A stretch of DNA of 64,000 nucleotides from Siphonodentalium dalli (lineage: Eukaryota > Mollusca > Scaphopoda > Gadilida > Siphonodentaliidae): positions 51,933,899 to 51,997,898 of the forward strand of contig CP136067.1 of assembly GCA_032622095.1 (NCBI GenBank). Direction: 5' to 3'. A program made the position numbers and the translations under genes. Shown here one piece after another: positions 10,301 to 41,741 of the stretch. The notes beneath the pieces are model-generated. The model did no database searches, was not told the DNA's origin, and saw only the letters and a list, made by a program, of their open reading frames with translations. The stretch's first letter is position 1. Every line of letters starts with the position of its first letter.

Positions 10301-10484
10301 AATGGGACACCTAGGATCAGATTGAATTTCCCCCAGTTGAAGTTGGTGATGTTCACCCATTAGTCAACTCGATTATGGATTTTATCTTCTGCAAATTAGA
10401 GGATACAGAAACTTCCCAGAAGGGTAAAAGTTACTAAAAAACAATCTTAATTTGAGATTATATACTTCCCAGAAGATGAGGCTA

Positions 10485-10808: not shown

Positions 10809-10950
10809 GATCCACTGCATTCACTCGAAAGGATCTCTGCCCCGTAAGGTGGACCAAGAAAGAAGTACCGCCTTCAATAAATCTATGGTGGTACCTCTTT
10901 CTTGGTCCATCATATGGGGCAGGGATCCTTTCGAGTGAATGCAGTGGATC
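10809..10950. repeat. 142-bp long hairpin HP1 (R)
   Basis: The left arm starting GATCCACTGCATTCACTCGA is the inverse of the right arm ending TCGAGTGAATGCAGTGGATC. The stem runs about 60 bp with few mismatches (a short unpaired patch at GTAAGG/ATATGA) to a loop of about 14 bases around TTCAATAAATC. Copies are at 24136-24277, 30477-30618, 36818-36959, 49471-49612 and 62798-62939. If transcribed it would fold into long double-stranded RNA. No transcript evidence exists here. Confidence 0.82.
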
Positions 10951-11290
10951 AGACATGGGAGTGGTTCAAAATCATGCCCCTTTGTTCCAAAGCAGGTGTC
11001 TTGAATGATGGATGTTTCACCAAATGTGATAAGAAAACTCTACCATATTTCAAGAAACAGTACTGGCTATGGGAAAGATCGCTTCACATAGCCAGTTTCT
11101 TGAAAATGAGTTTTCTTATCCCATTCGGTGAACAAAGCCATTGTATAAGACTTTCCTTACAGATGGAGGTGTTTGGCTCCAACAGATCTAAGGGTTGGTT
11201 TGCCATACAGAGCAAGATTCCATTATCTAGAGTGAAAACAGAGGACCAGATATGGAGGTGGTTCAAAATAATGCCCCAAAATTCCCACAA
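10951..11290. repeat. Direct repeat bracketing HP2
   Basis: A stretch reading ATGGGAGTGGTTCAAAATCA near 10956 recurs as ATGGAGGTGGTTCAAAATAA near 11251, each followed by TGCCCC. HP2 lies between them. This suggests that HP1 and HP2 belong to one decayed composite repeat. Type A and type B differ in the 11163-11220 part (GATGGAG versus GAGGGAG; AGCAAG versus GGCATG). Confidence 0.5.
11018..11130. repeat. 113-bp hairpin HP2 (R)
   Basis: Arms CACCAAATGTGATAAGAAAA and TTTTCTTATCCCATTCGGTG are inverted. Pairing continues through TTTCAAGAAAC and CTGGCTATG to a loop near 11070-11085. It lies 67 bp from HP1. Copies are at 24345-24457, 30686-30798, 37027-37139, 49680-49792 and 63007-63119. The 142-codon open frame at 10902-11330 runs across HP1 and HP2 and is explained by them. 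Confidence 0.75.
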
Positions 11291-11366
11291 CGTGACAACT
11301 GGTGAATTTGAAGAAAATCCTAAGCAGTAATGAAGCCAGTGACACTTAACCAACACTGATCAACCA

Positions 11367-11560
11367 GTTACAGTAATGCCCTAAATAATTGACTCCATAA
11401 CCACAGAAGAATTATGGCTCATTTTTCAGGATTTAGTCGAACATATGGCTTGAGAGCTTTCCAATGAATGGCAACAAGCCATATTTCCGACTAAATCCTG
11501 AGAAATTACTTATAATTCTGCTGTGGTTAAGGAGTCGATTATTTTGGGCATTACTGTAAC
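11367..11560. repeat. Foldback family FB2, complete 194-bp palindrome (R)
   Basis: Begins GTTACAGTAATGCCC and ends GGGCATTACTGTAAC. The arms pair along about 85 bp (TTAGTCGGAAATATGGCTTG on the right-arm strand), leaving a loop of about 25 bases around GCTTTCCAATGAATGGC. In type-B copies the left arm reads CGGAAATAT and pairs better than type A (CGAACATAT). Copies are at 24694-24887, 31035-31228, 37376-37569, 50029-50222 and 63356-63549. No coding capacity; probably a foldback MITE. Confidence 0.78.
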
Positions 11561-11817
11561 CAATCAACTCGTGATTATGTTGAGCATCAAAGTTGATTTT
11601 TGAAAATGGCAAATTTTCCAATCAAACATTCAGGATAGAAAACCCTCGGAATAATTAACATCGACAATGTGCTGCATTTATCACGCTCTTAATTCGTTCA
11701 AAATATCGATACGATCAGGTGAATAACACACACAGGGTATTACATGAGAGGTGCATAACTCCATCAGAAATGGTTGGACCAGACCCAAGTTCCATCTTCA
11801 CCTGTATCTTCGTGTGA

Positions 11818-12217
11818 TTAACCCTTTACCCAACAGAATGGCCCTGTGCCAATGCATTCTCTTATATATGCGAGTCGACCATAGGTCGCCTCGCATATAT
11901 AAGAGAATGCATTGGCTTAACACATTAAAAATTATAAAATTGTTAAAGAATGTAAGAAAAAATGGTAAAAAGTGTTAATAAACGATTTTATTTAGGCCAA
12001 TGCATTCTCTTATATATGCGAGGCGACCTATGGTCGACTCGCATATATAAGAGAATGCATTGGCACAGGGCATAACTGTAACTATCACAATGTGGTCAAG
12101 GAGCCGGTTCCAATGATATCCATATTTGTATGGTTCTATTGAGACAGACCGAAGATATTTTAGGCTGTTGAATCTTTATTTGGCCGGTTTTGGCCGGTTT
12201 GTTGGGTAAAGGGTTAA
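11818..12217. mobile_element. E5 TTAA MITE with double hairpin (unit A only)
   Basis: The element at 11822-12213 (392 bp) is flanked by TTAA at 11818-11821 and 12214-12217. Its ends are a perfect 14-bp inverted repeat CCCTTTACCCAACA, piggyBac-like by family knowledge. Inside, 11842-11916 and 11996-12070 form a perfect 75-bp inverted repeat with a 79-bp spacer. Each arm is itself a 69-bp hairpin, so the structure is a palindrome of palindromes. No transposase frame is present. The R segments of B, C, D and B' lack it and instead read GTGATTAAAGGTACTC, so the empty site is not perfectly clean (about 32 further bases differ). Confidence 0.85.
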
Positions 12218-12809
12218 AATAAACATGAGCTGCCACACACATACAGCAAACCCATTCAATCGGAGTCAATCCTATTCGATAGTCCCCATATCATCAGATT
12301 CCAACAACAACATTTTTTTAATGCTGCTTCAGTTATCAGAATCGATTAATTTCCAAAAAAATAATGCTAACCAGTCAACTATAGTATAAAATTGCCCAGA
12401 ACGTGTTATTTATCAACATTTTGTTTAACGAATTTGGCTGGATTATCAAATATCTAACACCCAAATCCACTTGATTTTAGAGTTATAAATCCATCTTCAT
12501 CCGCAATTTGATCCGAGTCCATCGGCTTGACAAATATTTGCCAGGCCACCAAAAATTACATATCGGAGAAATAACAAATTTCAAAAATCTATATCTGATC
12601 ACTCTGAGCTTTGATGGGTGGGTTCCTTGAGTCAAATAAAATATTGTTTACCCCCGAAGTCAAAGAAATAGTAATTTGGGAGCATGAATTCGGATTATGC
12701 ATATTACAAACAAAATATGAAAGTTATTGGATAACTATAACTCAAGATATCATCCTGACAACAAAATAATCAGCAAACTCCAAGTCGAAAAGGGTAAGAA
12801 CACTGTTAG
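12218..12809. other. R segment tail without recognised gene
   Basis: AT-rich sequence between E5 and T4. No repeats or frames of note, except that type B replaces the first about 30 bases by AGGTACTC before CAATCGGAGTCAATCC. Confidence 0.5.
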
Positions 12810-13005
12810 AAATGGTCGGACTGGATCCAAATTTGATATTTACCAAGACTTTCTCATAGGAAGACCATAAACCAATCTTGATGAAATTTTGTCAAATAAT
12901 TCTAGGTAAAAATGGTTGAACCAGATCTAAATGCGAACTTGATCAGTACTTTCTCATATGAAGACCATGTACCATATTTGATAAAATTCTGTAAAATATT
13001 ACTCA
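12810..13005. repeat. Tail tandem repeat T4, two units of 100 bp
   Basis: AAATGGTCGGACTGGATC at 12810 and AAATGGTTGAACCAGATC at 12910 head two aligned units, both with ACTTTCTCATA.GAAGACCAT. A related head, AAATGGTTGGACCAGACC, lies near 11771. The segment closes with GGACGGATGGATGGACAC before the next unit. Copies start at 25711, 32052, 38393 and 51472. Confidence 0.65.
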
Positions 13006-13079
13006 AGTTATTATCCTGACAACAATCTTTTTGGACGGATGGATGGACACGGCTTGGTGACCATTTCTATAATCTCACT

Positions 13080-13561
13080 TTAAAGATACGGGCGGCGTTG
13101 GCTGTGGGTATGCAGTTAAAATATTCACCTCCGTCAAAAACCGCCATAAACAGAAAGAATAGTAAAATGTAGACAGACCTTGTTCTTATACCAATCAGAA
13201 ATATGGCATAAACAGTATGTTATTGTCAAATGTTTTCCTTTGTTATGTATACAAAAGCAAAAAACGTTACGGAATCTAGTTTTTGTTTAAATCCGGATAT
13301 GGTAAACATAAAGAGCGTTATTTATTACTGTTTATTACTATATGGAAATAATAAAGAGCGTTAATATATCATTTGTGTGTGATTAACCAATAGAATTGCG
13401 CTGTGTTATGTAAACAGAAGCAAAACTTCTGTAACACGAGCAGGCTCGTGTTTATGTACACATCGTACGTTTATGTACACCATCGTATGTCTTGACGACA
13501 ATATACTATTTAAGCGCTGATTATGTTTGGCATATGAACAAAACTATATATATTTTAATAT
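13080..13561 (+). mobile_element. F1 element, right-truncated (L of unit B)
   Basis: Differs from the unit A copy by CCGCCATAAAC for CCGCCATGAAC and by one T fewer in the TGTTTTCC run. These marks show that units C and D took their left end from type A, not type B. Confidence 0.7.
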
Positions 13562-13746
13562 ATGTTAAGTTAGACTGATAAATAGTTTATTAAAATAAAC
13601 TTTTCACCCCCAATTTCATTAACAGGCATATATTGATAACAATTCCTCTTGCTTTACAAAATGTTTAATATGCAGATGACATATTTCAAAATAAATATAT
13701 CTAAAACAATTGGAATTCTACACAAAAAGAACATAACACTTAGTAT

Positions 13747-13997
13747 TTAACACTTTCATGACTGGAGCTTTGTGAAAACCCTGTGCCAATGCATTCTCTT
13801 ATATAGGTATCCCATAGGGAGGCTCGCACATATATAAGAGAATATATTGGCCTAACAAGATTTACCTTGACCTTGCAAGCCTGTGCATTCTCTCATATAT
13901 ATATGCAAGGCTCTCAATGGGAGACTCACATATATAAGAGAACGCACTGGCACATTAACTTTAATGCTGTACCAGCGCAGCTCCAGTCATGAAAGGG
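13747..13997. mobile_element. E1 MITE, complete (unit B)
   Basis: Starts TTAACACTTTCATGACTGG and ends with the inverse CCAGTCATGAAAGGG. The left TTAA is intact; the right flank reads ATAT, so the target duplication is degraded. Inside are two degraded copies of the CCAATGCATTCTC hairpin, the first from about 13786 to 13854. The end sequence matches that of E3 and E4. Confidence 0.65.
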
Positions 13998-15143
13998 ATA
14001 TACAGGGTTTCCACTATGGGGTCAGGAAGTCTCATTTTGAGTAATTCACCCAAGCCAATTTTCCACCAGGCCTGTAATTATGGTGTCGGACATTTGCAGA
14101 AAGAGGTCCCCAGAGGGTGATTTTAGTGACACTACCCTGAACAGTGGGCTAGCATCACCGAATTCATCATCCGGGGACCTCAATCTGCTATGGGAGACCT
14201 AGACACAGATTTAAGTTCCCAGATGGTGAAGATGGTGCAATGCATTGTGTTGTCTGCCAATTTGGGGATATAGAGAAACTGAACTAAAAAAGAAATAGAA
14301 TCAAACTAAAAAAGTAGTTAATTTGGTAATAAAGATACTTTCCAGAGATAATGAGGCCTGTGGAGGGACCTCATTCTGAAAATGTCCGGCACCATATTTT
14401 CAGGCTGCCTGATCATTGTTAACTAATACAGTAATGCCCTAAGTAATCAACAATGGGCCATAATTCTGCTGTGGTTAAGGAGTCGATTACTTAGGGCATT
14501 AGTGTACATGTATGTAAGTAGAAATTACTTCAAACTAGCCAGCGGATGAATGTCTGATGTTAGCATGTGATGGTAAATCAAGAATATTTCATGGGATAGT
14601 ATCAGGCATCAACATTAATTTAAAATTATAAAATGTTATCCCCGCTTGAAATAGTAACATTTTCAGCATGATTAGTTGGCCCACAATGTCTGTGCCATAC
14701 AATTTCAACCTATTTTTTTTCAGATTCACGATGTTCAAAACACATAATTAGGGCCGGGAATCCTTGTCTTATTATCATATATTTTGGGATTTAAACGGAT
14801 GTGACTCATTTGAACCCCAAAATTAGTATACATAATATGGTAAGAGTTATCTCAAAATATACTTACGCGGGAGATATCTGAACAATTTTTTTTTTATAAA
14901 TTTGAGATTGTTTTGTTTGTGCCAGTCAGTGGTCACACAAAAATTGCACCTGTAGACCATAGGAAGAAAATCTAGACCCGTCGTCCCTCTGAAACATTTA
15001 TGGTGCTACATAATTTTGGTGATAAAAACAAACAGAATGCAATGAGTGAAATTTTAAAATAATTTCCTGTTAAGGTAACCCAATGAACTTTTGCCGGACA
15101 GTCAGTTTCCGAATCCAGAATTTCAATGAATACATTTAATGGC

Positions 15144-15547
15144 TTAACCCTTTCAGTGCCAGGTCCGATTTTTGTATCAACCCATATACCCTGTGCCAAT
15201 GCATTCTCTTATATATGCGAGTAGACCATAGGTCGCCTCGCATATATAAGAGAATGCATTGGCCTAACAATTTTTCATCATTTGTTATTATTTTTCACAA
15301 TTTTTTACAATTTTAATAATTTTTTTCTTATATTCTTTAACAGACTTATGTTGTAGGTTAAGTGCCAGGGAATCTTACGTTTTTCATGGGCATCAAAATT
15401 ATTACTATGAATACTTGGTGATAGTTTTGAGTTATAACATGCCCCTAAGGTTTTATCCAGTAAAATTAAAAAAAATTAAAAAAAAGAAGATTTTACAGAC
15501 CGTAAATTAGGGCCGGTGAGATCGGCCCCTGGCACTGAAAGGGTTAA
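15144..15547. mobile_element. E2 TTAA MITE (unit B)
   Basis: Same 16-bp ends and TTAA flanks as in unit A. The hairpin is at 15195-15263 with one loop change (GTAGACC for GTCGACC). The poly-A run is broken into shorter A runs separated by TT, which separates type B from type A. Confidence 0.82.
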
Positions 15548-16191
15548 CTAAATATTTATGTTTGGCTGAAACTTGGAATATACCACTAGATGTCTAATGA
15601 CAACTGGCTACATCACAACCCTTAGAGGAAACTCTGGTATATTGTAAATAACAATGGCAATTAGTTACATACTATTAATTAAACATTCAAATCGTTTATC
15701 ACATACAACAACAACATGAACATGTCATCAATCCATCAGCTTTCAAAACCTCAGTTTAACAAAGCTCTCAAATCGCTCAAACCTTTACATGATTATCACT
15801 ATTGTTAACACATTCAGATGACCATGATTCAATCATAAGTGGAGGAGACAGGCCCCTAAAAAATTGTGCATAGTTTGTTCACACGAGTATGATGTCGTCG
15901 CAGATGAAGATATTGTAGGTTCTTCGTAAGCCATGGTTAATCACGTGATTGACAACTCTAAGATCTTTCCATCTACGATTTTTACGTATACACAACTGCG
16001 ATTACGTCGCAAGTGGAGGATTTCGCATCTAAAATCAAACAGTACTTGATATTATTTTTTTACTCGCGATCTTGTCGTGAGCATGCGCAGTCCAACTACC
16101 GGTTACTACATACGACAGAAATAATTCAACTTACGATTGAATCAGGGTCATCTGAACGTTCACTTACAAATGCCGAGCAGTGAGAGAGTAA

Positions 16192-16411
16192 CCCTTTCAT
16201 GGCGGAGCTTCGATGGTGCAGCATTAAAGATATACATAGGGAGCCTCGCATATATAAGAGAATGCACTGGCTTAGAAGGGCAAGGTTAATATTGTTAGGC
16301 CAATGTATTCACTTATATATGCGAGGCTCCAATGGGAGACTCAAATATATAAGAGAATGCATTGGCACAGGGTTATTCTCAAAATTTCAGGAAGCTCCAG
16401 TCATGGAATGG
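16192..16411. mobile_element. E3 MITE, hairpin arm deleted (unit B)
   Basis: 23 bp shorter than the unit A copy. The left arm of the first hairpin is lost between ATTAAAGAT and ATACATAG. The second hairpin remains at 16299-16366. Confidence 0.65.
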
Positions 16412-17324
16412 TTACCTTTTTATTTACTACATGGATTCTCTTGGCAATTATCAATGTATACATTGGAATGGTCCATTATTCATTTGGAGGGATATTCAGG
16501 AAATATAAGCAGACGACAGACAGACAAAATGATAATTATAAGATTTCAGAAGTATTGCTATTCATTGGAGGGAAATTTTCAAATAAAAAACTCAACAAAC
16601 GACAATGGCCTATGGCCGTATGTTGAACTTATTTTCTGAACATTTCCTGAGGGAATTTCTTATCAGTGAGTATTTAGTAGAGAAAGGGTTAAATCCAGAC
16701 AGTTATTTTCAACAGGTTCCAAATTAAAGATATATTATGTACTTATTCAGGTGCGTGAAACTAGTAAGTTGGTATTCAGGCACTATGCCAACTGGAGGAA
16801 TATAGCATTCTAGTAACATTGCCGAAAATTTCAAACAAATCGACATTACCACTCCAAAGAAAACATCGTCTGAACTACGCGCAATTGTAAATATTTACTT
16901 CTCAATTCAGGACGCAACTATCTGCGATAAGCTAACAAAAACGATTTCGCCATCGAGAGTCACTGTATTTAATTAATATATAAGAATGGCAGTGTTTGTT
17001 TTCAATTTGGATATAATATTTGTAAAAATTACTACTTTGAGCAAGATTATTCTCCCTACCGGAGTGTTTCACACCACTTTAAAATTACAAGAATTTCACT
17101 TGAAATATTTTTCAAAGGACAAAGTAAACAAATCAACTAACAGTTATTTTATATGATATTCCGTTGTGGAATGGCACGCTAATTCAAACAAACTCGTAAT
17201 TAAACAGGTCTGGCACATTCCAAATTCAACTATTATTGTTCAATATGGCTATTTCTATTTAACATGTTCGATAAAAGAGGCATAACCTAAAATCAGATGA
17301 TACAAATATACCTGAAGAATAGTG

Positions 17325-17529
17325 TTAACCCCTTTCATGACTGGAGCTTACTGAAATTTTGCGAAAACCCTGTGCCAATGCATTCTCTTATATATGTGAG
17401 TCGCCCAAAAATACATTGGCCTAACAATATTTGCCACGACCTAACAAGCCAGTACATTCTCTTATATATACGAGGCTCCCTATGGGAGACTCACATATAT
17501 AGGAGAATGCAATGGCACAGGATATTTAA
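17325..17529. mobile_element. E4 TTAA MITE, right end degraded (unit B)
   Basis: Same structure as in unit A with small changes near the right side (GGCACAGGATATT for GGCGCAGGGTATT). Confidence 0.55.
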
Positions 17530-19639
17530 TGTTGTGGATTGACACGCTAATTCAAACAAACTCTTTGTTTACTTTGTCTATAATCACAGTTGCTACAGTT
17601 ATGCCGACAGCTATCTCCCATTGGTGAAATACTTATAATATAATTTGATGATACTAAATATATAAGGAAGCATAAGCTGCCAAATCAGATTTAACAACAT
17701 AATCCTAGTGTTATTTCATTTGCTATGTTAAAAAATAATGAGATTCTAGAAACCCTTTCAACAATGGATATTTTCTATGTCAGCTTTTAATAAGATTGTT
17801 AGGGCATGGTAAAATACGCATGTGGTAATTTCAACAATGGGCCATAACTGAGGTGAAAATTGGCGAGCGGAACCAAAATTCAAACTTGACCTGTATTTTG
17901 GGCTATTAAACCCACAAATCAAATTTCAGTCCATTCAGTTAAGACTTACTAAAGTTATCATCCAGAAAAGAAAAAAAGCGAACAGACGGATGGACGGCTA
18001 TACAGACCAATAACATAATGCATTGTTTTTTTCAACACAGGAGTATATAAATAATCCAAACTGGATTTATTGGTCAAAAGCCCAAAATATTGATGGACAG
18101 ATTACATAATACAATGTTTATTCCAACGGGCATATAAAGAGGGTTTTACCCATTCTCTAAGTCACTCTGAGTCTTTCGTAATCTCATCGACTTGTCATTC
18201 GCAAAAGGCATGAGATCTTATCCCAATTTACATCACACTGTCTTAAGTAAATCATTTAGATTGAACTATTTCATCTTAGTGTAAGTTCTGATTGGCTGTA
18301 GTTACATGGAATCCCAGGGGTCGTAAATAGACTCTCCAAGAGAGGTAATCAGGCCCACTACTGGAATTACCTAACCATAGATGTCAATTTTCCAGATATA
18401 TAGCAAATCAGATATAATGCTAAATAAATAAATATACTGTGTTCTCTGGCACCTCTCTAACCACTGTAAAGAGATTACTCAAAATTGTATTTGCAGTTTT
18501 GACCCAAATTTTCAAAAAGTTTAAAACTCTTCAGATTCTATAATTTATTCACAATAAGAAATTTAGATAGGTTTCTGACATGAGTAAAAGGCGTTGGAGA
18601 ATAGATTTTATACATTGCTTCGAAATTTGTAGGATTTTTTACTAAAAAATTACCCATACATCCATTAATTTCTAGAATTCTTGGGGAACAACTATTAAAA
18701 ATGAAAACAAATTAGCCTCCCTCCCTCATCCAGTTTCCCGTAATACTTGACTAAGAAAACAGGTCTAACATATATGTTTGCATTACCTGATAGTGATAAA
18801 TATTAATCCTTTCTTTAGTCAATAATAATTGACAAGTAATTCCCTTGTTCAGATAATAAGTTTAACAAACAGCTGAACTTATTGCAGGAACATTTCCCAC
18901 CTACTAATAGAAGTCCTTCTGTATTATCTGTTTCTCTGTCTGTTGTCTACTTATGTTTCCTGAACACACCTTCGGATGAATAACAGACCATTCCATGTAC
19001 GATATTATAACTGATGGAAGAGTCCATTTAGTAAAGAAAAGGTTGAAGAGTATTCTAACTTAAATTTTAGGCCCAAAAAACATTATTTGAGTCTCAAAAG
19101 AAGAAAAAAATTCTGAAGGGATGACTTTATTTTAATTTTTTATGTTTTTTTGTGCACATCGTAAGCATGGATCATGATAGCTTCCACCATGATATCTAGT
19201 AATATTTCAGAAAATGTAGAGGGAACTTTGTTTTGCATACACACTCATAAGCTTTCCGATGAATGGCAACAAGCCATATTTCCGACTAAATCCTGAAAAG
19301 TTACCCATAATTCTGCTGTGTTTAAGGAGTCAATTAGTTAGGACATTACTGTAACAATTACATTGTGCTACCAGTATACCTGTATGACATAGGGATTACC
19401 AATAATGTTCTAACGCCCGTGACTATTCACAATTGTTATTGTTGTCAATAAATTGACACCTCTCCATTATAACATGTGATCGTAAATTTCCTCCAGTGCC
19501 TTTCAATTGTTTTGGAGTTACAATTTATTTTCCAGACTATGATGATTGGCTAATCATTTTCTTCAATGAAGTCATCTACTTAATGTTCTATGTCACTATG
19601 CATATACATGATAGTCAATCTATCAATCAAAGGGATATG

Positions 19640-20167
19640 TTAAAGATACGGGCGGCGTTGGCGGTGGTTATGCTGTTAAAATATTCAGCTCTGTCAAAAA
19701 CTGCCATAAACAGAAATAATAGTGAAATATAGACAGACTTTGTTCTTATACCAATCAGAAATATGGCATAAACAGTATGTTATTGTCAAATGTTTTTCCT
19801 TTGTTATGTAAACAAAAGCAAAAAACGTTACAGAACCTGGCTTTTTTTTTTAGATCCGGATATGGTAAACATAAAGAGCATTATTTGTTACTGTTTTCCT
19901 GATATGGAAATAATAAAGAGCGTTTATATCATTTGTGTGTGATTAACCGATAGAATTGCACAGTGTTAAGTAAACAGAAGCAAAACTTCTGTAACACGAG
20001 CAGGCTCTTGTTTACGTACACCATCGTACGTCTTGACAAAAATATACTATTTACGCTCTGATTATGTTTGGCATAGAACAAAACTTTATATATTTTAATA
20101 TTCCTTCTGTTGATGGCGATTTGAACAAATATGAAATTTCTGCAACGAACGCCGCCCGTGCCTTTAA
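19640..20167 (+). mobile_element. F1 MITE-like element, complete (unit B)
   Basis: Same ends as the unit A copy. It is one base shorter because of GCATAGAAC versus GCATAAGAAC, and carries TTACGCTCTG in place of TTACGCGCTG. Confidence 0.72.
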
Positions 20168-23100
20168 GAGTTCATGTAAGTTGCAAATAATGCTCAATAC
20201 ATATTATATATGGATGTTGTTTTTTCTGTCATAATATCATAAATCAAAATAAAACGTCCCATGCTGGCCTGTTATTTCAAAGCAGCGGTGTCCGAGACTC
20301 AAATAATATTTTTTATTTGGCTTTAGGCTTCTTTCCATTTTATTCCACACCCATCGATACGAGGCACATGTATTCAACGGAATACGAGCCATTGAATACA
20401 TATTAGTGTATACCTCTAGTTGAGTACATGCCGGAACTATTCTCGTTGACGTTGTCGCCAAGAAAGATGACGTACATTACGTCAACGATCCTATTCGGGT
20501 GATGCCCTGAAAATTACTGGTTATTCATCAGTTAAATCACAATAAAGGTAGTGCTAGTATCAATGAAGGTGACAGTAATGGATTTAATTTATATGACACA
20601 ACGGTCAAGAAGAAATACAGAACACGACTTGCATCATAGTCTCGAATCTTTTATCGAACTACCGTACTGACCCGCGTTTAGGCCCAGGGGGGCCTTTGTT
20701 TTATTTGAGCTCAAAAATCCAAGTGGGCTTAAACTCGAATATGACCCTTTGCAAACCAAAAATCCCAAGAAATCGGGAGAGTAAAACTGAAGAAATGGAT
20801 CCAAAAAATAAAGTCGATCCAACAGAGATTCGGGGAAATATACACGGCTTATAGATTAAATAAAGTTAAGTATAAGTTACTTTGAGAAAGTATTTTTTTC
20901 ATTTTGATGTGTATATTAAAATATTAGCAACCACAACGCGCAGGCGCGTTGTTGCTTTTCAAGTTTAGGCGTGAATGACGTCATTAATTTTTACAATACC
21001 ATGAAACAGCATTTCGACGCGATGAAAATCCGGACAAGAAACATGGGTTAAAAATCACGTGACTTCCGCTTCGCTTTCGCACAGAATCATGGGAACAATA
21101 ATATCCCAAAAAGAAACGGTGACACAGAATCGGAAGTGGACCAACGGGATTGTTATAAAATTAACAACTTTAGTTTTTCTGAACAATTCCTACGTGATTT
21201 TGGCCTATAGATTAGTTTCGTTTGACCAATTTCGTTGGTTAGCTGAATAAAATCAGCGAAGACGTCATGACATGGTCCATGACGTCATTTGCGTCATTTG
21301 GTGTTGTGGGCTAGAATCCAGAAAAAATTGGTCTCCGCAGGAAACACTGATTTCACATCAGTATACTAGACTTGGTTGCATTTATAACCGTTTTCGCAAA
21401 AGATATATGCGAAAATAGCACAAGCAAACGTGCCTGCTTCAGAATCAAATTACCACAGTTGATTAGCCAAGGATGTACCCTTTCCAACAATGTATAGCAC
21501 GACATCGTGTGTTGCGCCGATGTTTACTTATGGTGTTTTGTAATAACGATCCCGCCTTAGCTGCGTGTAATTTTCCTCCGTACAAATTGCTTAGCGAAAA
21601 ATCCCCCTAATAGGCGGACAACATATTCAATAAGTTCCCGTCTCGCAACGATTTGGCCTCACAGACATATCAGCCGCTTATCAATTCCTTCGAGATAAAT
21701 GATTGAACCAATCTACCCTAACAAGGGGGATTTTTTCACGGTTGTATGTCGCGCGAATAGTATTGGCTGGCTGCCAGGTATTCACACTCAACATCGGAAC
21801 GCGGCTTATTATTTGAAATCATTTGTGAGCAGTGGTGGCAGCGGGGAAGTCAAATTATATGTCCATCATAACATGGGTCGCCTTCGTTGGAGAAGTAGGA
21901 ATTAAGCCTCAACCAAATTTGTTGTCAAGTTGACGTGGGGGGCTTATATGACCTTGACCTTGACCATAAAACGACCTTGACCTCTGTTGAAAGACATCTC
22001 ACTTAAAGGGCCATTTTGCTAGATATGTGTTGCGATGTACGCGCTCATGTCAATATTCAGAGGCCTTTTATAGCTATCCTTTAGAAATATACCGGTATCG
22101 AGGCTCCTACATACGCGAGTCTGTATGTGACGAACAGAAACATGGGAGTACGATATCAATTTAAACTTGACCTCCATAAAGAATCTATTATATGTTTGAG
22201 GAAAGTTTTGGTCTGTGCGTGTGGGTGTGTGTGTATGTGTGTGTGTGTGTGTGTTTCCGCGATGGAATCGGAAACGGCTAACCGATTTTGACGAAACTTG
22301 CTACGGGTATGTAGTTTGACCTGTGGACTAACATGGGTATATCCGTTTGCCCGTGCGGCGTCACCTTGACCTTCAAATGACCTTGAACTCAAGTTCTCCG
22401 CTGAGCCGATTTTCACCAAATTTGGTATGTGTGGGTAGTTTCAGGCGCTGAGCAATTTCGTCACACCCGGATGCCCGTGCGGCGTGAACTTGAGATTTTA
22501 AATGACATTGAACTGTATCTGGGTATCCACTGGGCCGATTTCCACCATTTTTTGGGGGTGTTGGTGTAGATGGGGATGCCAACAAATTTCGTCTCACCAA
22601 CATGCCCGTCAGACAGGTACCCAGCTAAAACCTAATGTATAGTTTGTGACTTTTGTCTGTTAGCTATGGCCGGGAAAACTTCCGGACGGATTTCGACGAA
22701 ACTTGATACCTAAGTGTACGTTTGTCCGGGAAGTGTTTTGGACGGGTCAAAGTGTGATGCTTGATCTTCAAAATGGTCGATTCAAGATCAAATCGGGTAA
22801 TAGTGGCGGATTTCGACGATATTCGATAGCTAGGGATACTTTTGTCCGGGCAGTGTTTTGGACGGCTTAACTCGTAACCCCGACCTGACATTGACATTCA
22901 AAACGGTAAATTCAAGGTCAAATCTGGTCAAATTTCGCATAACTAGATCCGACGAAGCACCGCGTGTGGTTGCCCCGTTACGTGTCTGGCGGCCATGTTT
23001 TTCAACGAATTTCAGTCAAAATAGGAGGCTCCATCTAGAGGTCATCCTGAAGATCCATATGAAGATTGGTGGTGATCAGATGAGTGACGTGTTCTGTAGG

Positions 23101-25980
23101 GTGCACCAAAGGATATAGTCATACCATGAGTAAATTCCAATATGACCACTGGTGGCCACGTTTTTCAACAAATGGCAGTAAAAATAGGAGGCACCAATCA
23201 AGAGGTCACTCTGAAGATCCATATAATGTTTGGTGATAATCAGATGAGGGATGTGGTCTGTAGGTTGTGCCAAAGGATTTAATCATGCAAAGAGTAAAAT
23301 CAAAGATGGCTGCCGGCATCCATGTTTTTCATCGATAATTGTTCAAATTTGATAGCTCCCATCTAGAGGTGATTCATGGAGACTTTTACCTTTATCTTTC
23401 ATTCGCTTACCAGGAATGTGGTACTGCTACACCAGCTAACCCCATTTTACAACAATCTTCACCATATCTTATTTTGGATTATGCCCCTTTCATGTATTTC
23501 AAATAGACAAGCCTGCAAATAGTGTGTCTGTCATTTGCAGAATGAGGTCCCCAGATGGTGAATTCAGAGACGCTATCCTGGAAGGTGGGCTAGCATCACA
23601 AAATTCACCCTCTGAGAACTCAATCTGCAATGGGACACCTAGGATCAGATTGAATTTCCCCCAGTTGAAGTTGGTGATGTTCACCCATTAGTCAACTCGA
23701 TTATGGATTTTATCTTCTGCAAATTAGAGGATACAGAAACTTCCCAGAAGGGTAAAAGTTACTAAAAACAATCTTAATTTGAGATTATATACTTCCCAGA
23801 AGATGAGGCTAGCAGAATGAGGTACACAGAGGGTGAATTTGGTGATGCTAGTCCACTCTGAAGGATAGCATCACTAAATTCACCCTCTGGGGACCTCATT
23901 CTGCATATGATCTCCTGTGTTATTCATCCGTTTGTACTGAAATTTTGAACAAATTGAGAACATGGTAAATGCGGAACATTGTGGAAGTTAATTACCCCCA
24001 TGGTTTTCTAACCTTCTTGTGAATGTTGCTTGATTGAAAATATTACCATTTTAAAAAACCACACATTCAACTTTGACGCTCAACAACGTCGCAGGTTGAT
24101 GGGTTAACTGGGAGATCAGTGTTTGCTAAGTGCCCGATCCACTGCATTCACTCGAAAGGATCTCTGCCCCGTAAGGTGGACCAAGAAAGAAGTACCGCCT
24201 TCAATAAATCTATGGTGGTACCTCTTTCTTGGTCCATCATATGGGGCAGGGATCCTTTCGAGTGAATGCAGTGGATCAGACATGGGAGTGGTTCAAAATC
24301 ATGCCCCTTTGTTCCAAAGCAGGTGTCTTGAATGATGGATGTTTCACCAAATGTGATAAGAAAACTCTACCATATTTCAAGAAACAGTACTGGCTATGGG
24401 AAAGATCGCTTCACATAGCCAGTTTCTTGAAAATGAGTTTTCTTATCCCATTCGGTGAACAAAGCCATTGTATAAGACTTTCCTTACAGAGGGAGGTGTT
24501 TGGCTCCAACAGATCTAAGGCTTGGTTTGCCATACAGGGCATGATTCCATTATCTAGAGTGAAAACAGAGGACCAGATATGGAGGTGGTTCAAAATAATG
24601 CCCCAAAATTCCCACAACGTGACAACTGGTGAATTTGAAGAAAATCCTAAGCAGTAATGAAGCCAGTGACACTTAACCAACACTGATTAACCAGTTACAG
24701 TAATGCCCTAAATAATTGACTCCATAACCACAGAAGAATTATGGCTCATTTTTCAGGATTTAGTCGGAAATATGGCTTGAGAGCTTTCCAATGAATGGCA
24801 ACAAGCCATATTTCCGACTAAATCCTGAGAAATTACTTATAATTCTGCTGTGGTTAAGGAGTCGATTAGTTTGGGCATTACTGTAACCAATCAACTCGTG
24901 ATTCTGTTGAGCATCAAAGTTGATTTTTGAAAATGGCAAATTTTCCAATCAAACAACATTCAGGATAGAAAACCCTCGGAATAATTAACATCGACAATGT
25001 GCTGCATTTATCACGCTCTTAATTCGTTCAAAATATCGATACGATCAGGTGAATAACACACGCAGGGTATTACATGAGAGGTGCATAACTCCATCAGAAA
25101 TGGTTGGACCAGACCCAAGTTCCATCTTCACCTGTATCTTCGTGTGATTAAAGGTACTCAATCGGAGTCAATCCTATTCGATGGTCCCCATATCATCAGA
25201 TTCCAACAACAACATTTTTTTAATGCTGCTTCAGTTATCAGAATCGATTAATTTCCAAAAAATAATGCTAACCAGTCAACTATAGTATAAAATTGCCCAG
25301 AACGTGTTATTTATCAACATTTTGTTTAACGAATTTGGCTGGATTATCAAATATCTAACACCCAAATCCACTTGATTTTAGAGTTATAAATCCATCTTCA
25401 TCCGCAATTTGATCCGAGTCCATCGGCTTGACAAATATTTGCCAGGCCACCAAAAATTACATATCGGAGAAATAACAAATTTCAAAAATCTATATCTGAT
25501 CACTCTGAGCTTTGATGGGTGGGTTCCTTGAGTCAAATAAAATATTGTTTACCCCCGAAGCCAAAGAAATAGTAATTTGGGAGCATGAATTCGGATTATG
25601 CATATTACAAACCAAATATGAAAGTTATTGGATAACTATAACTCAAGATATCATCCTGACAACAAAATAATCAGCAAACTCCAAGTCGAAAAGGGTAAGA
25701 ACACTGTTAGAAATGGTCGGACTGGATCCAAATTTGATATTTACCAAGACTTTCTCATAGGAAGACCATAAACCAATCTTGATGAAATTTTGTCAAATAA
25801 TTCTAGGTAAAAATGGTTGAACCAGATCTAAATGCGAACTTGATCAGTACTTTCTCATATGAAGACCATGTACCATATTTGATAAAATTCTGTAAAATAT
25901 TACTCAAGTTATTATCCTGACAACAATCTTTTTGGACGGATGGATGGACACGGCTTGGTGACCATTTCTATAATCTCACT

Positions 25981-26508
25981 TTAAAGATACGGGCGGCGTT
26001 GGCTGTGGGTATGCAGTTAAAATATTCACCTCCGTCAAAAACCGCCATGAACAGAAAGAATAGTAAAATGTAGACAGACCTTGTTCTTATACCAATCAGA
26101 AATATGGCATAAACAGTATGTTATTGTCAAATGTTTTTCCTTTGTTATGTAAACAAAAGCAAAAAACGTTACAGAACCTGGCTTTTTTTTTTAGATCCGG
26201 ATATGGTAAACATAAAGAGCATTATTTGTTACTGTTTTCCTGATATGGAAATAATAAAGAGCGTTTATATCATTTGTGTGTGATTAACCGATAGAATTGC
26301 ACAGTGTTAAGTAAACAGAAGCAAAACTTCTGTAACACGAGCAGGCTCTTGTTTACGTACACCATCGTACGTCTTGACAAAAATATACTATTTACGCTCT
26401 GATTATGTTTGGCATAGAACAAAACTTTATATATTTTAATATTCCTTCTGTTGATGGCGATTTGAACAAATATGAAATTTCTGCAACGAACGCCGCCCGT
26501 GCCTTTAA
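25981..26508 (+). mobile_element. F1 element, L/R hybrid (unit C)
   Basis: The left 100 bp is from the truncated L copy (type A) and the remainder from the R copy (type B). The product is a full-length element with both inverted ends. It is the recombination joint of the unit. Confidence 0.8.
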
Positions 26509-32321: not shown

Positions 32322-32849
32322 TTAAAGATACGGGCGGCGTTGGCTGTGGGTATGCAGTTAAAATATTCACCTCCGTCAAAAACCGCCATGAACAGAAAGA
32401 ATAGTAAAATGTAGACAGACCTTGTTCTTATACCAATCAGAAATATGGCATAAACAGTATGTTATTGTCAAATGTTTTTCCTTTGTTATGTAAACAAAAG
32501 CAAAAAACGTTACAGAACCTGGCTTTTTTTTTTAGATCCGGATATGGTAAACATAAAGAGCATTATTTGTTACTGTTTTCCTGATATGGAAATAATAAAG
32601 AGCGTTTATATCATTTGTGTGTGATTAACCGATAGAATTGCACAGTGTTAAGTAAACAGAAGCAAAACTTCTGTAACACGAGCAGGCTCTTGTTTACGTA
32701 CACCATCGTACGTCTTGACAAAAATATACTATTTACGCTCTGATTATGTTTGGCATAGAACAAAACTTTATATATTTTAATATTCCTTCTGTTGATGGCG
32801 ATTTGAACAAATATGAAATTTCTGCAACGAACGCCGCCCGTGCCTTTAA
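32322..32849 (+). mobile_element. F1 element, L/R hybrid (unit D)
   Basis: Same hybrid structure as in unit C, with the same crossover interval. Confidence 0.8.
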
Positions 32850-35800
32850 GAGTTCATGTAAGTTGCAAATAATGCTCAATACATATTATATATGGATGTT
32901 GTTTTTTCTGTCATAATATCATAAATCAAAATAAAACGTCCCATGCTGGCCTGTTATTTCAAAGCAGCGGTGTCCGAGACTCAAATAATATTTTTTATTT
33001 GGCTTTAGGCTTCTTTCCATTTTATTCCACACCCATCGATACGAGGCACATGTATTCAACGGAATACGAGCCATTGAATACATATTAGTGTATACCTCTA
33101 GTTGAGTACATGCCGGAACTATTCTCGTTGACGTTGTCGCCAAGAAAGATGACGTACATTACGTCAACGATCCTATTCGGGTGATGCCCTGAAAATTACT
33201 GGTTATTCATCAGTTAAATCACAATAAAGGTAGTGCTAGTATCAATGAAGGTGACAGTAATGGATTTAATTTATATGACACAACGGTCAAGAAGAAATAC
33301 AGAACACGACTTGCATCATAGTCTCGAATCTTTTATCGAACTACCGTACTGACCCGCGTTTAGGCCCAGGGGGGCCTTTGTTTTATTTGAGCTCAAAAAT
33401 CCAAGTGGGCTTAAACTCGAATATGACCCTTTGCAAACCAAAAATCCCAAGAAATCGGGAGAGTAAAACTGAAGAAATGGATCCAAAAAATAAAGTCGAT
33501 CCAACAGAGATTCGGGGAAATATACACGGCTTATAGATTAAATAAAGTTAAGTATAAGTTACTTTGAGAAAGTATTTTTTTCATTTTGATGTGTATATTA
33601 AAATATTAGCAACCACAACGCGCAGGCGCGTTGTTGCTTTTCAAGTTTAGGCGTGAATGACGTCATTAATTTTTACAATACCATGAAACAGCATTTCGAC
33701 GCGATGAAAATCCGGACAAGAAACATGGGTTAAAAATCACGTGACTTCCGCTTCGCTTTCGCACAGAATCATGGGAACAATAATATCCCAAAAAGAAACG
33801 GTGACACAGAATCGGAAGTGGACCAACGGGATTGTTATAAAATTAACAACTTTAGTTTTTCTGAACAATTCCTACGTGATTTTGGCCTATAGATTAGTTT
33901 CGTTTGACCAATTTCGTTGGTTAGCTGAATAAAATCAGCGAAGACGTCATGACATGGTCCATGACGTCATTTGCGTCATTTGGTGTTGTGGGCTAGAATC
34001 CAGAAAAAATTGGTCTCCGCAGGAAACACTGATTTCACATCAGTATACTAGACTTGGTTGCATTTATAACCGTTTTCGCAAAAGATATATGCGAAAATAG
34101 CACAAGCAAACGTGCCTGCTTCAGAATCAAATTACCACAGTTGATTAGCCAAGGATGTACCCTTTCCAACAATGTATAGCACGACATCGTGTGTTGCGCC
34201 GATGTTTACTTATGGTGTTTTGTAATAACGATCCCGCCTTAGCTGCGTGTAATTTTCCTCCGTACAAATTGCTTAGCGAAAAATCCCCCTAATAGGCGGA
34301 CAACATATTCAATAAGTTCCCGTCTCGCAACGATTTGGCCTCACAGACATATCAGCCGCTTATCAATTCCTTCGAGATAAATGATTGAACCAATCTACCC
34401 TAACAAGGGGGATTTTTTCACGGTTGTATGTCGCGCGAATAGTATTGGCTGGCTGCCAGGTATTCACACTCAACATCGGAACGCGGCTTATTATTTGAAA
34501 TCATTTGTGAGCAGTGGTGGCAGCGGGGAAGTCAAATTATATGTCCATCATAACATGGGTCGCCTTCGTTGGAGAAGTAGGAATTAAGCCTCAACCAAAT
34601 TTGTTGTCAAGTTGACGTGGGGGGCTTATATGACCTTGACCTTGACCATAAAACGACCTTGACCTCTGTTGAAAGACATCTCACTTAAAGGGCCATTTTG
34701 CTAGATATGTGTTGCGATGTACGCGCTCATGTCAATATTCAGAGGCCTTTTATAGCTATCCTTTAGAAATATACCGGTATCGAGGCTCCTACATACGCGA
34801 GTCTGTATGTGACGAACAGAAACATGGGAGTACGATATCAATTTAAACTTGACCTCCATAAAGAATCTATTATATGTTTGAGGAAAGTTTTGGTCTGTGC
34901 GTGTGGGTGTGTGTGTATGTGTGTGTGTGTGTGTGTTTCCGCGATGGAATCGGAAACGGCTAACCGATTTTGACGAAACTTGCTACGGGTATGTAGTTTG
35001 AGCTGTGGACTAACATGGGTATATCCGTTTGCCCGTGCGGCGTCACCTTGACCTTCAAATGACCTTGAACTCAAGTTCTCCGCTGAGCCGATTTTCACCA
35101 AATTTGGTATGTGTGGGTAGTTTCAGGCGCTGAGCAATTTCGTCACACCCGGATGCCCGTGCGGCGTGAACTTGAGATTTTAAATGACATTGAACTGTAT
35201 CTGGGTATCCACTGGGCCGATTTCCACCATTTTTTGGGGGTGTTGGTGTAGATGGGGATGCCAACAAATTTCGTCTCACCAACATGCCCGTCAGACAGGT
35301 ACCCAGCTAAAACCTAATGTATAGTTTGTGACTTTTGTCTGTTAGCTATGGCCGGGAAAACTTCCGGACGGATTTCGACGAAACTTGATACCTAAGTGTA
35401 CGTTTGTCCGGGAAGTGTTTTGGACGGGTCAAAGTGTGATGCTTGATCTTCAAAATGGTCGATTCAAGATCAAATCGGGTAATAGTGGCGGATTTCGACG
35501 ATATTCGATAGCTAGGGATACTTTTGTCCGGGCAGTGTTTTGGACGGCTTAACTCGTAACCCCGACCTGACATTGACATTCAAAACGGTAAATTCAAGGT
35601 CAAATCTGGTCAAATTTCGCATAACTAGATCCGACGAAGCACCGCGTGTGGTTGCCCCGTTACGTGTCTGGCGGCCATGTTTTTCAACGAATTTCAGTCA
35701 AAATAGGAGGCTCCATCTAGAGGTCATCCTGAAGATCCATATGAAGATTGGTGGTGATCAGATGAGTGACGTGTTCTGTAGGGTGCACCAAAGGATATAG

Positions 35801-38662
35801 TCATACCATGAGTAAATTCCAATATGACCACTGGTGGCCACGTTTTTCAACAAATGGCAGTAAAAATAGGAGGCACCAATCAAGAGGTCACTCTGAAGAT
35901 CCATATAATGTTTGGTGATAATCAGATGAGGGATGTGGTCTGTAGGTTGTGCCAAAGGATTTAATCATGCAAAGAGTAAAATCAAAGATGGCTGCCGGCA
36001 TCCATGTTTTTCATCGATAATTGTTCAAATTTGATAGCTCCCATCTAGAGGTGATTCATGGAGACTTTTACCTTTATCTTTCATTCGCTTACCAGGAATG
36101 TGGTACTGCTACACCAGCTAACCCCATTTTACAACAATCTTCACCATATCTTATTTTGGATTATGCCCCTTTCATGTATTTCAAATAGACAAGCCTGCAA
36201 ATAGTGTGTCTGTCATTTGCAGAATGAGGTCCCCAGATGGTGAATTCAGAGACGCTATCCTGGAAGGTGGGCTAGCATCACAAAATTCACCCTCTGAGAA
36301 CTCAATCTGCAATGGGACACCTAGGATCAGATTGAATTTCCCCCAGTTGAAGTTGGTGATGTTCACCCATTAGTCAACTCGATTATGGATTTTATCTTCT
36401 GCAAATTAGAGGATACAGAAACTTCCCAGAAGGGTAAAAGTTACTAAAAACAATCTTAATTTGAGATTATATACTTCCCAGAAGATGAGGCTAGCAGAAT
36501 GAGGTACACAGAGGGTGAATTTGGTGATGCTAGTCCACTCTGAAGGATAGCATCACTAAATTCACCCTCTGGGGACCTCATTCTGCATATGATCTCCTGT
36601 GTTATTCATCCGTTTGTACTGAAATTTTGAACAAATTGAGAACATGGTAAATGCGGAACATTGTGGAAGTTAATTACCCCCATGGTTTTCTAACCTTCTT
36701 GTGAATGTTGCTTGATTGAAAATATTACCATTTTAAAAAACCACACATTCAACTTTGACGCTCAACAACGTCGCAGGTTGATGGGTTAACTGGGAGATCA
36801 GTGTTTGCTAAGTGCCCGATCCACTGCATTCACTCGAAAGGATCTCTGCCCCGTAAGGTGGACCAAGAAAGAAGTACCGCCTTCAATAAATCTATGGTGG
36901 TACCTCTTTCTTGGTCCATCATATGGGGCAGGGATCCTTTCGAGTGAATGCAGTGGATCAGACATGGGAGTGGTTCAAAATCATGCCCCTTTGTTCCAAA
37001 GCAGGTGTCTTGAATGATGGATGTTTCACCAAATGTGATAAGAAAACTCTACCATATTTCAAGAAACAGTACTGGCTATGGGAAAGATCGCTTCACATAG
37101 CCAGTTTCTTGAAAATGAGTTTTCTTATCCCATTCGGTGAACAAAGCCATTGTATAAGACTTTCCTTACAGAGGGAGGTGTTTGGCTCCAACAGATCTAA
37201 GGCTTGGTTTGCCATACAGGGCATGATTCCATTATCTAGAGTGAAAACAGAGGACCAGATATGGAGGTGGTTCAAAATAATGCCCCAAAATTCCCACAAC
37301 GTGACAACTGGTGAATTTGAAGAAAATCCTAAGCAGTAATGAAGCCAGTGACACTTAACCAACACTGATTAACCAGTTACAGTAATGCCCTAAATAATTG
37401 ACTCCATAACCACAGAAGAATTATGGCTCATTTTTCAGGATTTAGTCGGAAATATGGCTTGAGAGCTTTCCAATGAATGGCAACAAGCCATATTTCCGAC
37501 TAAATCCTGAGAAATTACTTATAATTCTGCTGTGGTTAAGGAGTCGATTAGTTTGGGCATTACTGTAACCAATCAACTCGTGATTCTGTTGAGCATCAAA
37601 GTTGATTTTTGAAAATGGCAAATTTTCCAATCAAACAACATTCAGGATAGAAAACCCTCGGAATAATTAACATCGACAATGTGCTGCATTTATCACGCTC
37701 TTAATTCGTTCAAAATATCGATACGATCAGGTGAATAACACACGCAGGGTATTACATGAGAGGTGCATAACTCCATCAGAAATGGTTGGACCAGACCCAA
37801 GTTCCATCTTCACCTGTATCTTCGTGTGATTAAAGGTACTCAATCGGAGTCAATCCTATTCGATGGTCCCCATATCATCAGATTCCAACAACAACATTTT
37901 TTTAATGCTGCTTCAGTTATCAGAATCGATTAATTTCCAAAAAATAATGCTAACCAGTCAACTATAGTATAAAATTGCCCAGAACGTGTTATTTATCAAC
38001 ATTTTGTTTAACGAATTTGGCTGGATTATCAAATATCTAACACCCAAATCCACTTGATTTTAGAGTTATAAATCCATCTTCATCCGCAATTTGATCCGAG
38101 TCCATCGGCTTGACAAATATTTGCCAGGCCACCAAAAATTACATATCGGAGAAATAACAAATTTCAAAAATCTATATCTGATCACTCTGAGCTTTGATGG
38201 GTGGGTTCCTTGAGTCAAATAAAATATTGTTTACCCCCGAAGCCAAAGAAATAGTAATTTGGGAGCATGAATTCGGATTATGCATATTACAAACCAAATA
38301 TGAAAGTTATTGGATAACTATAACTCAAGATATCATCCTGACAACAAAATAATCAGCAAACTCCAAGTCGAAAAGGGTAAGAACACTGTTAGAAATGGTC
38401 GGACTGGATCCAAATTTGATATTTACCAAGACTTTCTCATAGGAAGACCATAAACCAATCTTGATGAAATTTTGTCAAATAATTCTAGGTAAAAATGGTT
38501 GAACCAGATCTAAATGCGAACTTGATCAGTACTTTCTCATATGAAGACCATGTACCATATTTGATAAAATTCTGTAAAATATTACTCAAGTTATTATCCT
38601 GACAACAATCTTTTTGGACGGATGGATGGACACGGCTTGGTGACCATTTCTATAATCTCACT
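32322..38662. repeat. Unit D (R-only hybrid unit, 6341 bp)
   Basis: This is a tandem copy of unit C with the same hybrid junction (32422-32492) and the same length. The only difference I located is C at 28661 versus G at 35002. It is therefore most simply a duplication of C, or the reverse. Confidence 0.93.
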
Positions 38663-39145
38663 TTAAAGATACGGGCGGCGTTGGCTGTGGGTATGCAGTT
38701 AAAATATTCACCTCCGTCAAAAACCGCCATGAACAGAAAGAATAGTAAAATGTAGACAGACCTTGTTCTTATACCAATCAGAAATATGGCATAAACAGTA
38801 TGTTATTGTCAAATGTTTTTCCTTTGTTATGTATACAAAAGCAAAAAACGTTACGGAATCTAGTTTTTGTTTAAATCCGGATATGGTAAACATAAAGAGC
38901 GTTATTTATTACTGTTTATTACTATATGGAAATAATAAAGAGCGTTAATATATCATTTGTGTGTGATTAACCAATAGAATTGCGCTGTGTTATGTAAACA
39001 GAAGCAAAACTTCTGTAACACAAGCAGGCTCGTGTTTATGTACACATCGTACGTTTATGTACACCATCGTATGTCTTGACGACAATATACTATTTAAGCG
39101 CTGATTATGTTTGGCATATGAACAAAACTATATATATTTTAATAT
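38663..39145 (+). mobile_element. F1 element, right-truncated (L of unit A')
   Basis: Copy of 1-483. Confidence 0.7.
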
Positions 39146-39171
39146 ATGTTAAGTTAGACTGATAAATAGTA

Positions 39172-39283
39172 TATATGCATATATATATATGCAAGGCTCT
39201 CAATGGGAGACTCACATATATAAGAGAACGAACTGGCACATGAACTTTAATGCTGTACCAGCGCAGCTCCAGTCATGAAAGGG
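39172..39283. mobile_element. E1 MITE remnant (unit A')
   Basis: Copy of 510-621 with the same deletion. Confidence 0.65.
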
Positions 39284-40448
39284 ATATACAGGGTTTCCAC
39301 TATGGGGTCAGGAAGTCTCATTTTGAGTAATTCACCCAAGCCATTTTTCCACCAGGCCTGTAATTATGGTGTCGGACATTTGCAGAAAGGGGTCCCCAGA
39401 GGGTGATTTTAGTGACACTACCCTGAACAGTGGGCTAGCATCACCGAATTCATCATCCGGGGACCTCAATCTGCTATGGGAGACCTAGACACAGATTTAA
39501 GTTCCCAGATGGTGAAGATGGTGCAATGCATTGTGTTGTCTGCCAATTTGGGGATATAGAGAAACTGAACTAAAAAAGAAATAGAATCAAACTAAAAAAG
39601 TAGTTAATTTGGTAATAAAGATACTTTCCAGAGATAATGAGGCCTGTGGGGGACCTCATTCTGAAAATGTCCGGCACCATATTTTCAGGCTGCCTGATCA
39701 TTGTTAACTAATACAGTAATGCCCTAAGTAAAGTAATCAACAATGGGCCATAATTCTGCTGTGGTTAAGGAGTCGATTACTTAGGGCATTAGTGTACATG
39801 TATGTAAGTAGAAATTACTTCAAACTAGCCAGCGGATGAAGGTCTCATGTTAGCATGTGATGGTAAATCAAGAATATTTCATGGGATAGTATCAGGCATC
39901 AACATTAATTTAAAATTATAAAATGTTATTCCCGCTTGAAATAGTAACATTTTCAGCATGATTAGTTGGCCCACAATGTCTGTGCCATACAATTTCAACC
40001 TATTTTTCTTCAGATTCACGATGTTCAAAACACAGAATTAGGGCCGGGAATCCTTGTCTTATTATCATATATTTTGGGATTTAAACGGATGTGACTCATT
40101 TGAACCCCAAAATTAGTATACATAATATGGTAAGAGTTATCTCAAAATATACTTACGCGGGAGATATCTGAACAATTTTTATTTATAAATTTGAGATTGT
40201 TTTGTTTGTGCCAGTCCATTTTTGTTCTATCAGTGGTCACATAAAAATTGCACCTGTAGACCATAGGAAGAAAATCTAGACCCGTCGTCCCTCTGAAACA
40301 TTTATGGTGCTACATAATTTTGGTGATAAAAACAAACAGAATGCAATTGAGTGAAATTTTAAAATAATATCCTGTTATGGTAACCCAATGAACTTTTGCC
40401 GGACAGTCAGTTTCCGAATCCAGAATTTCAATGAATACATTTAATGGC

Positions 40449-40854
40449 TTAACCCTTTCAGTGCCAGGTCTGATTTTTGTATCAACCCATATACCCTGTG
40501 CCAATGCATTCTCTTATATATGCGAGTCGACCATAGGTCGCCTCGCATATATAAGAGAATGCATTGGCCTAACAATTTTTCATCATTTGTTATTATTTTT
40601 CACAATTTTTTACAATTTTAATAATTTTTTTCTTATATTCTTTAACAGACTTATGTTGTAGGTTTAGTGCCAGGGAATCTTACGTTTTTCATGGGCATCA
40701 AAATTATTACTATGAATACTTGGTGATAGTTTTGAGTTATAACATGCCCCTAAGGTTTTATCCAGTAAAATAATTAAAAAAAAAAAAAAAAAAACGATTT
40801 TACAGATCGTAAATTAGGGCCGGTGAGATCGGCCCCTGGCACTGAAAGGGTTAA
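40449..40854. mobile_element. E2 TTAA MITE (unit A')
   Basis: Copy of 1787-2192; hairpin at 40500-40568 and a 19-base A run at 40776-40794, unchanged in length. Confidence 0.82.
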
Positions 40855-41498
40855 TTAAATATTTATGTTTGGCTGAAACTTGGAATATACCACTAGATGT
40901 CTAATGACAACTGGCTACATCACAACCCTTAGAGGAAACTCTGGTATATTGTAAATAACAATGGCAATTAGTTACATACTATTAATTAAACATTCAAATC
41001 GTTTATCACATACAACAACAACATGAACATGTCATCAATCCATCAGCTTTCAAAACCTCAGTTTAACAAAGCTCTCAAATCGCTCAAACCTTTACATGAT
41101 TATCACTATTGTTAACACATTCAGACGACCATGATTCAATCATAAGTGGGGGAGACAGGCCCCTAAAAAATTGTGCATAGTTTGTTCACACGAGTATGAT
41201 GTCGTCGCAGATGAAGATATTGTAGGTTCTTTGTAAGCCATGGTTAATCACGTGATTGACAACTCTAAGATCTTTCCATCTACGATTTTTACGTATACAC
41301 AACTGCGATTACGTCGCAAGTGGAGGATTTCGCATCTAAAATCAAACAGTACTTGATATTATTTTTTTACTCGCGATCTTGTCGTGAGCATGCGCAGTCC
41401 AACTACCGGTTACTACATACGACAGAAATAATTCAACTTACGATTGAATCAGGGTCATCTGAACGTTCACTTACAAAGGCCGAGAAGTGAGAGAGTAA

Positions 41499-41741
41499 CC
41501 CTTTCATGGCGGAGCTTCGATGGTGCAGCATTAAAGATCCTGTGCCAGTGCATTCTTATATATACATAGGGAGCCTCGCATATATAAGAGAATGCACTGG
41601 CTTAGAAGGCCAAGGTTAATATTGTTAGGCCAATGTATTCACTTATATATGCGAGGCTCCAATGGGAGACTCAAATATATAAGAGAATGCATTGGCACAG
41701 GGTTATTCTCAAAATTTCAGGAAGCTCCAGTCATGGAATGG
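41499..41741. mobile_element. E3 MITE with two hairpins (unit A')
   Basis: Copy of 2837-3079; hairpins at 41544-41601 and 41629-41696. Confidence 0.65.

Follow-up and report, generated by a model that had tools for sequence, protein, structure and literature searches.

How does a tandem array built of 13-kb units come to hold units of half that length? The question is raised by a 64,000-bp stretch of DNA (hereafter, the window; G000:C7:51933899-51997898, from a 2.23-Gb genome in 9 contigs) that lies inside such an array.

Organization of the array

Mapping in 200 kb fetched around the window gave the array an extent of some 120 kb, its limits lying near -28617 and near 91565 (window coordinates). 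Its units follow the order P (partial), A0, B0; A1, B1, C1, D1; A2, B2, C2; A3 and B3 (truncated). A and B units consist of one copy of a transposon (F1_L), an L body, a second copy (F1_R) and an R body, while C and D consist of one F1 copy and an R body (Table 1). There are 0 short units after B0, 2 after B1 and 1 after B2 (B3 being truncated) and, given the presence of C2, the copy number of the short unit varies along the array. A genome search with the L body, a lower bound from the best 40 of 9,567 candidates, returned 8 copies in the array (that of B3 in two pieces) and, elsewhere, short pieces 71-89% identical. No Rfam match was found within the window at gathering thresholds, nor any Pfam family for three scanned window reading frames (E 0.001).

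Table 1. Units, F1 copies and related features in window coordinates; offsets count from the unit start.
Feature	Position	Strand	Description
Unit A1	1..13079	+	F1_L, L body, F1_R, R body; extra TTAA MITE near the R-body end (self-comparison, alignments)
Unit B1	13080..25980	+	Layout of A1 without the extra MITE; further 298 bp near the start (split by the aligner into 198 + 100)
Unit C1	25981..32321	+	6,341 bp; hybrid F1 and B-type R body only
Unit D1	32322..38662	+	6,341 bp; best read as a copy of C1, one difference (35002)
Unit A2	38663..51741	+	One difference from A1 (48739 vs 10077)
Unit B2	51742..64000	+	Identical to B1; runs to 64642 beyond the window
Unit C2	64643-70983		Third hybrid, just beyond the window, between B2 and A3
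F1_L of A1	1..485	+	Left TTAA present, right end short by about 66 bp; L parent type, G at offset 69
F1_R of A1	6311..6839	+	Complete, TTAA at both ends
F1_R of B1	19640..20167	+	Complete, TTAA at both ends; R parent type
Hybrid F1 of C1	25981..26508	+	L-type at offsets 1-100, R-type from offset 172
Hybrid F1 of D1	32322..32849	+	Same L/R pattern as C1
Crossover tract	26081..26151 (offsets 101-171)	+	71 bp, same in both parents
Second TTAA-bounded MITE	11822..12213 (A1)	+	Ends CCCTTTACCCAACA; B1 has a single TTAA at 25148-25151

The F1 family

F1 is a dispersed, TTAA-bounded MITE family of 528 bp. Searching the genome with the C copy as query gave 2,819 first-look candidates; among the best 40, which were scored, the array accounts for 10, and the remaining 30, from other places in the genome, are 93-95% identical. 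Twenty of these 30 non-array copies, those nearest to C, were fetched, and the consensus of the 20 leans towards C. TTAA at both ends and differing flanks were found in 20/20 of these copies, chosen as the nearest to C, and it is this combination that identifies F1 as a dispersed MITE. Inside the TTAA, both ends of F1_R in A1 and B1 read AG(A/G)(T/C)ACGGGCGGCGTT as terminal inverted repeats; ends of the ACGGGCGGCGTT type also occur, with scattered changes, in the 20 genome copies. Among frames of at least 80 aa, the longest stop-to-stop frame overlapping F1 of A1 or B1 has 91 aa. By its TTAA target, F1 may be a piggyBac-like MITE.

In the array, F1_L keeps its left TTAA end and lacks about 66 bp of its right end (in A1 and B1, with which the six other L copies agree); F1_R and the F1 copies of C and D are complete. 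The F1 parts of C, L and R each lie 3-6% from the 20-copy consensus outside the crossover tract, C being no odder than L or R. A polarity was also sought in the F1 family and discarded, the consensus favouring none of L, R and C.

A single switch from L to R in the hybrid F1

The alignment began with ten F1 regions of the window and was then made for 18 F1 copies across the array, of which 8 are L, 7 are R and 3 are hybrid; the 33-bp F1_R stub of B3, too short to align, stands outside these counts. Over their common part, F1_L of A1 and F1_R of B1 differ in 62 alignment columns. In each of C1, D1 and C2, the first 11 of these diagnostic columns are of L type and the other 51 of R type, with one switch and no interleaving. 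With contiguous gaps taken as single events, C1 reads 11 L then 31 R, an order whose chance is 1/C(42,11) = 2.3e-10. The 71-bp tract holding the switch is the longest identical run between the parent copies, the next being 28 bp.

A first-pass annotation, made from the letters of the window, had claimed that C changes from L to R variants within 26081-26151 and that the parents are identical there. Both statements hold: the alignment that it proposed, with diagnostic sites mapped, put the switch in that very interval, and the interleaving of L and R variants that it named as contrary evidence is absent from C1, D1 and C2. Variants found in neither parent, which it had likewise named, number 0 in C1 and 0 in C2; D1 has a single such change (offset 2681, window 35002).

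Over offsets 1-171, C1 is identical to each of A1, A2 and A3; from offset 101 up to the unit end it is identical to B1, with 0 changes in 6,241 bp. The flanks of the hybrid come from the respective parents, the upstream one being as before an A start and the downstream one matching B1 over those same 6,241 bp. A composite of an A-type L start and a B-type right half matches all 6,341 bp of C without a single mismatch, which bears out the earlier proposal of a crossover between the F1 opening an A unit and the F1 inside B, with homology supplied by the MITE and a full-length F1 regained. Among the 8 x 7 parent combinations composed for C1, 0 mismatches were obtained only for A1, A2 or A3 starts with B0, B1 or B2 right halves. 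Starts from A0, B0, B1, B2 or B3 with these same right halves leave 1 mismatch, and composites with A-type right halves have the wrong length. The sole discriminating site is offset 69, where A1-A3 carry G while A0 and all of B0-B3 carry A, so the A-specific origin of the L part of C comes down to one SNP.

C1 displays three features of non-allelic homologous recombination (NAHR): a prefix/suffix hybrid with one switch, a switch placed in parent-identical sequence, and flanks from both parents. Judged by its sequence, C is very probably the joint of a non-allelic homologous crossover between the F1_L of an A-type unit and the F1_R of a B-type unit. The reciprocal F1, with an R start running into L, occurs in 0/18 of the array copies, which is expected if the reciprocal product was lost and confirms nothing.

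Gain or loss of DNA

The array still shows the hybrid together with both parental copies and the 71-bp tract of exchange, and from them we infer the pathway. In the one that we prefer, sister chromatids or homologues would be misaligned so that the F1_R of a B unit paired with the F1_L opening the next A unit, and an unequal exchange between copies 6,341 bp apart would leave a duplicated B right half, with a hybrid F1 between the two copies. The array has that arrangement, the hybrid F1 lying between two B right halves (that of B1, and C). At the B0-A1 boundary, the spacing from F1_R (-6340) to F1_L (+1) is 6,341 bp, the length of C, so the substrate of such a gain still exists; so does A1-B1, the substrate of a loss.

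The first-pass annotation had described a loss, in which an A-B dimer shed 19639 bp to become C. Its unit lengths and its arithmetic are right (19,739 - 100) and its crossover stands; the deletion is not unique, as a 6,341-bp gain gives the same sequence. On the deletion path, the F1_L of an A unit would recombine with the F1_R of the following B unit by crossover or single-strand annealing, with the same product in sequence and length as the gain, and A-B pairs are there to serve it (A0 B0, A1 B1, A2 B2, A3 B3). Theory also speaks for it: the review PMC2583991 holds that, for one direct-repeat pair, deletions should in principle be more numerous than duplications in every case, a point against the gain. 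Parental SNPs do not separate gain from loss, because the right halves of B0, B1 and B2 are mutually identical (0/6,341) and A1-A3 are identical over offsets 1-171. Set against the deletion, none of it decisive, are the additional A-B dimer that it requires and that has since gone, a pairing over 19.6 kb as opposed to 6.3 kb, and the later changes at this spot (from C to C-D, and from one A-B-C block to two), which are most simply gains. Since a gain needs no vanished dimer, pairs the nearer copies and has later gains beside it, we lean modestly towards a 6,341-bp duplication; the deletion is a serious possibility that we place second.

Other explanations of the joint

Replication template switching between F1 copies, as opposed to a repair crossover, would make the same joint and is inseparable from it by sequence alone. 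Microhomology-mediated switching usually involves a few bases, and the 71-bp identical tract is what a homology-dependent exchange predicts; a few-base joint at the end of B3 means that other joint types do occur in the array. We regard template switching as unlikely here.

An assembly artefact, with C, D or the copy of the A-B-C block being a mis-join, gains some ground from the 1/32,321 bp that separates A1-B1-C1 from A2-B2-C2: over the roughly 22 kb between 10077 and 32493, the point of first difference between D1 and A3, no base distinguishes the two blocks, and the copy number could be wrong. About 600 bp of context, for their part, suffice for the hybrid joint, which is seen three times, and a mis-join would hardly pick the 71-bp tract with 0 mismatches on both sides. 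The local hybrid is thus hard to explain as a mis-join, and we hold an artefact to be very improbable. Equally little can be said for duplication of the B right half by some other mechanism, followed by conversion of its F1 by an F1_L tract. Mosaics do exist in the array, as in the A-type stretch inside the B-type unit B0, but this route takes two events, a duplication boundary matching F1 by chance, and a conversion tract that ends in the same 71 bp and extends to the unit start.

The least credible reading makes C ancestral and derives A and B from a circle, carrying an F1 with R start and L end, that integrated into the F1 of C: homologous recombination is reversible on paper and the F1 parts of C are no odder than L or R against the 20-copy consensus, but such a circle would itself have to be recombinant, C-type units are identical or nearly identical to B halves, and parental contexts are already present at the array edges, in the most diverged units (P-A0 and B3), on which ground C was rejected as ancestor of A and B.

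Divergence and order of events

A1 and B1 differ at 20/6,338 sites in their right halves and at 59/6,255 in their left halves (Fisher p 7e-6); the left halves are about three times more different, as if right halves exchanged more often. B1 and C1 differ at 0/6,241 sites (upper 95% limit 0.05%), and C1 and D1 at 1/6,341. Differences between P and the other right halves range from 25/2,988 sites (B, C, D) to 41-43/3,371 (A), and B3 carries many private changes. Both edges have the parental context: at P-A0 the end of a right half is followed by F1_L, and at B3 the L body runs into F1_R, of which 33 bp are left. The hybrid context is confined to units that match B halves exactly or with a single-base difference. 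These divergences, together with the parental contexts of the edge units, indicate that C most likely formed after the A/B split, and the most likely order, as far as sequence comparison can tell, is that the split was followed by the formation of C, and that in turn by the steps from C to C-D and the doubling of A-B-C.

C would have been duplicated once to give D, and the 32,321-bp A-B-C block would have been duplicated to give A2-B2-C2, in an order relative to D that cannot be fixed. Alternatively, the C-D pair could have been duplicated and one copy then lost. The first-pass annotation had named both C and D as recombination products; this applies to C, and D is best read as a later tandem copy of it. 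An independent origin of D was set aside in view of the common junction and a distance of only 1/6,341 bp from C.

Comparison with known systems

The case is one of ordinary NAHR between transposon copies, with unusually sharp evidence. It resembles NAHR between direct repeats, as treated in PMC2583991, in the direct repeats themselves, in an exchange within a run of identity and in a deletion or duplication as outcome; the substrates here are MITE copies of about 0.5 kb in a tandem array, and the process is the same. Hybrid monomers of human alpha-satellite (PMC8336445) likewise join the prefix of one type to the suffix of another and are proposed there as a driver of the birth of new monomers. 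Alpha-satellite monomers are about 171 bp long, whereas here the site of exchange is a transposon that belongs to a 13-kb unit, and unit length is halved. Chimeric Galileo transposons (PMC3573991) are a near parallel; they concern copies in the Drosophila genome and ours is an event internal to an array. That NAHR via paralogous transposon copies may yield tandem duplications is stated in PMC9659126; that is a general scheme, and here we have a single case with a mapped exchange. PMC3849761 was consulted with regard to TTAA MITEs lying in rDNA, itself a tandem array.

The process itself is textbook and the event of a known kind. What the locus adds is a base-level case in which a transposon insertion can alter the period of a large tandem array, with parents, hybrid and exchange tract still side by side and with divergence that suggests the order of events. 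We tentatively suggest, as a possibility that we would not put at even chances, that a new tandem repeat with a period of 6.34 kb is arising within an older array of 13-kb period by way of the direct MITE repeats internal to its units. If so, MITE insertions in units would switch large satellites to half their period, and this array would display all stages, from no short unit (after B0) through one (after B2) to two (after B1). The birth of a satellite period through internal MITE copies thereby becomes testable in other individuals of the species.

Further rearrangements in and near the array

The second TTAA-bounded MITE is present in P and in A0-A3; the corresponding sites of B0-B2, C and D hold a single TTAA, and were either never filled or precisely excised. 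Near 95444 and 128686, in the right flank, there are relatives of this MITE with 98% identity across some 400 bp.

B0 is a mosaic. It starts as B-type, turns A-type for at least 1.3 kb (the equivalent of about 17964-19270 of B1, in alignment columns 4933-7047 of the L half) and is of B type once more in its right half, the right switch falling between B1 coordinates 19270 and 20057, an interval that includes part of F1_R. The A-type stretch of B0 reflects either a conversion tract or a double exchange. In B3, F1_R (window 91500) is cut short at 33 bp and continues directly into the R body, at the equivalent of 7267, with about four bases in common, a microhomology-like deletion near the right edge of the array.

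To the left of the array, at about -50547 to -31523 of the window (G000:C7 near 51.883-51.902 Mb), lies an element with inverted repeats and matches to DNA polymerase B and to an integrase with chromo domain, a putative Polinton-like element. Two copies of a diverged F1 relative, in direct orientation, flank it; they are 99.8% identical and lie 18.5 kb apart, possibly the trace of another F1-mediated exchange or of two young insertions.
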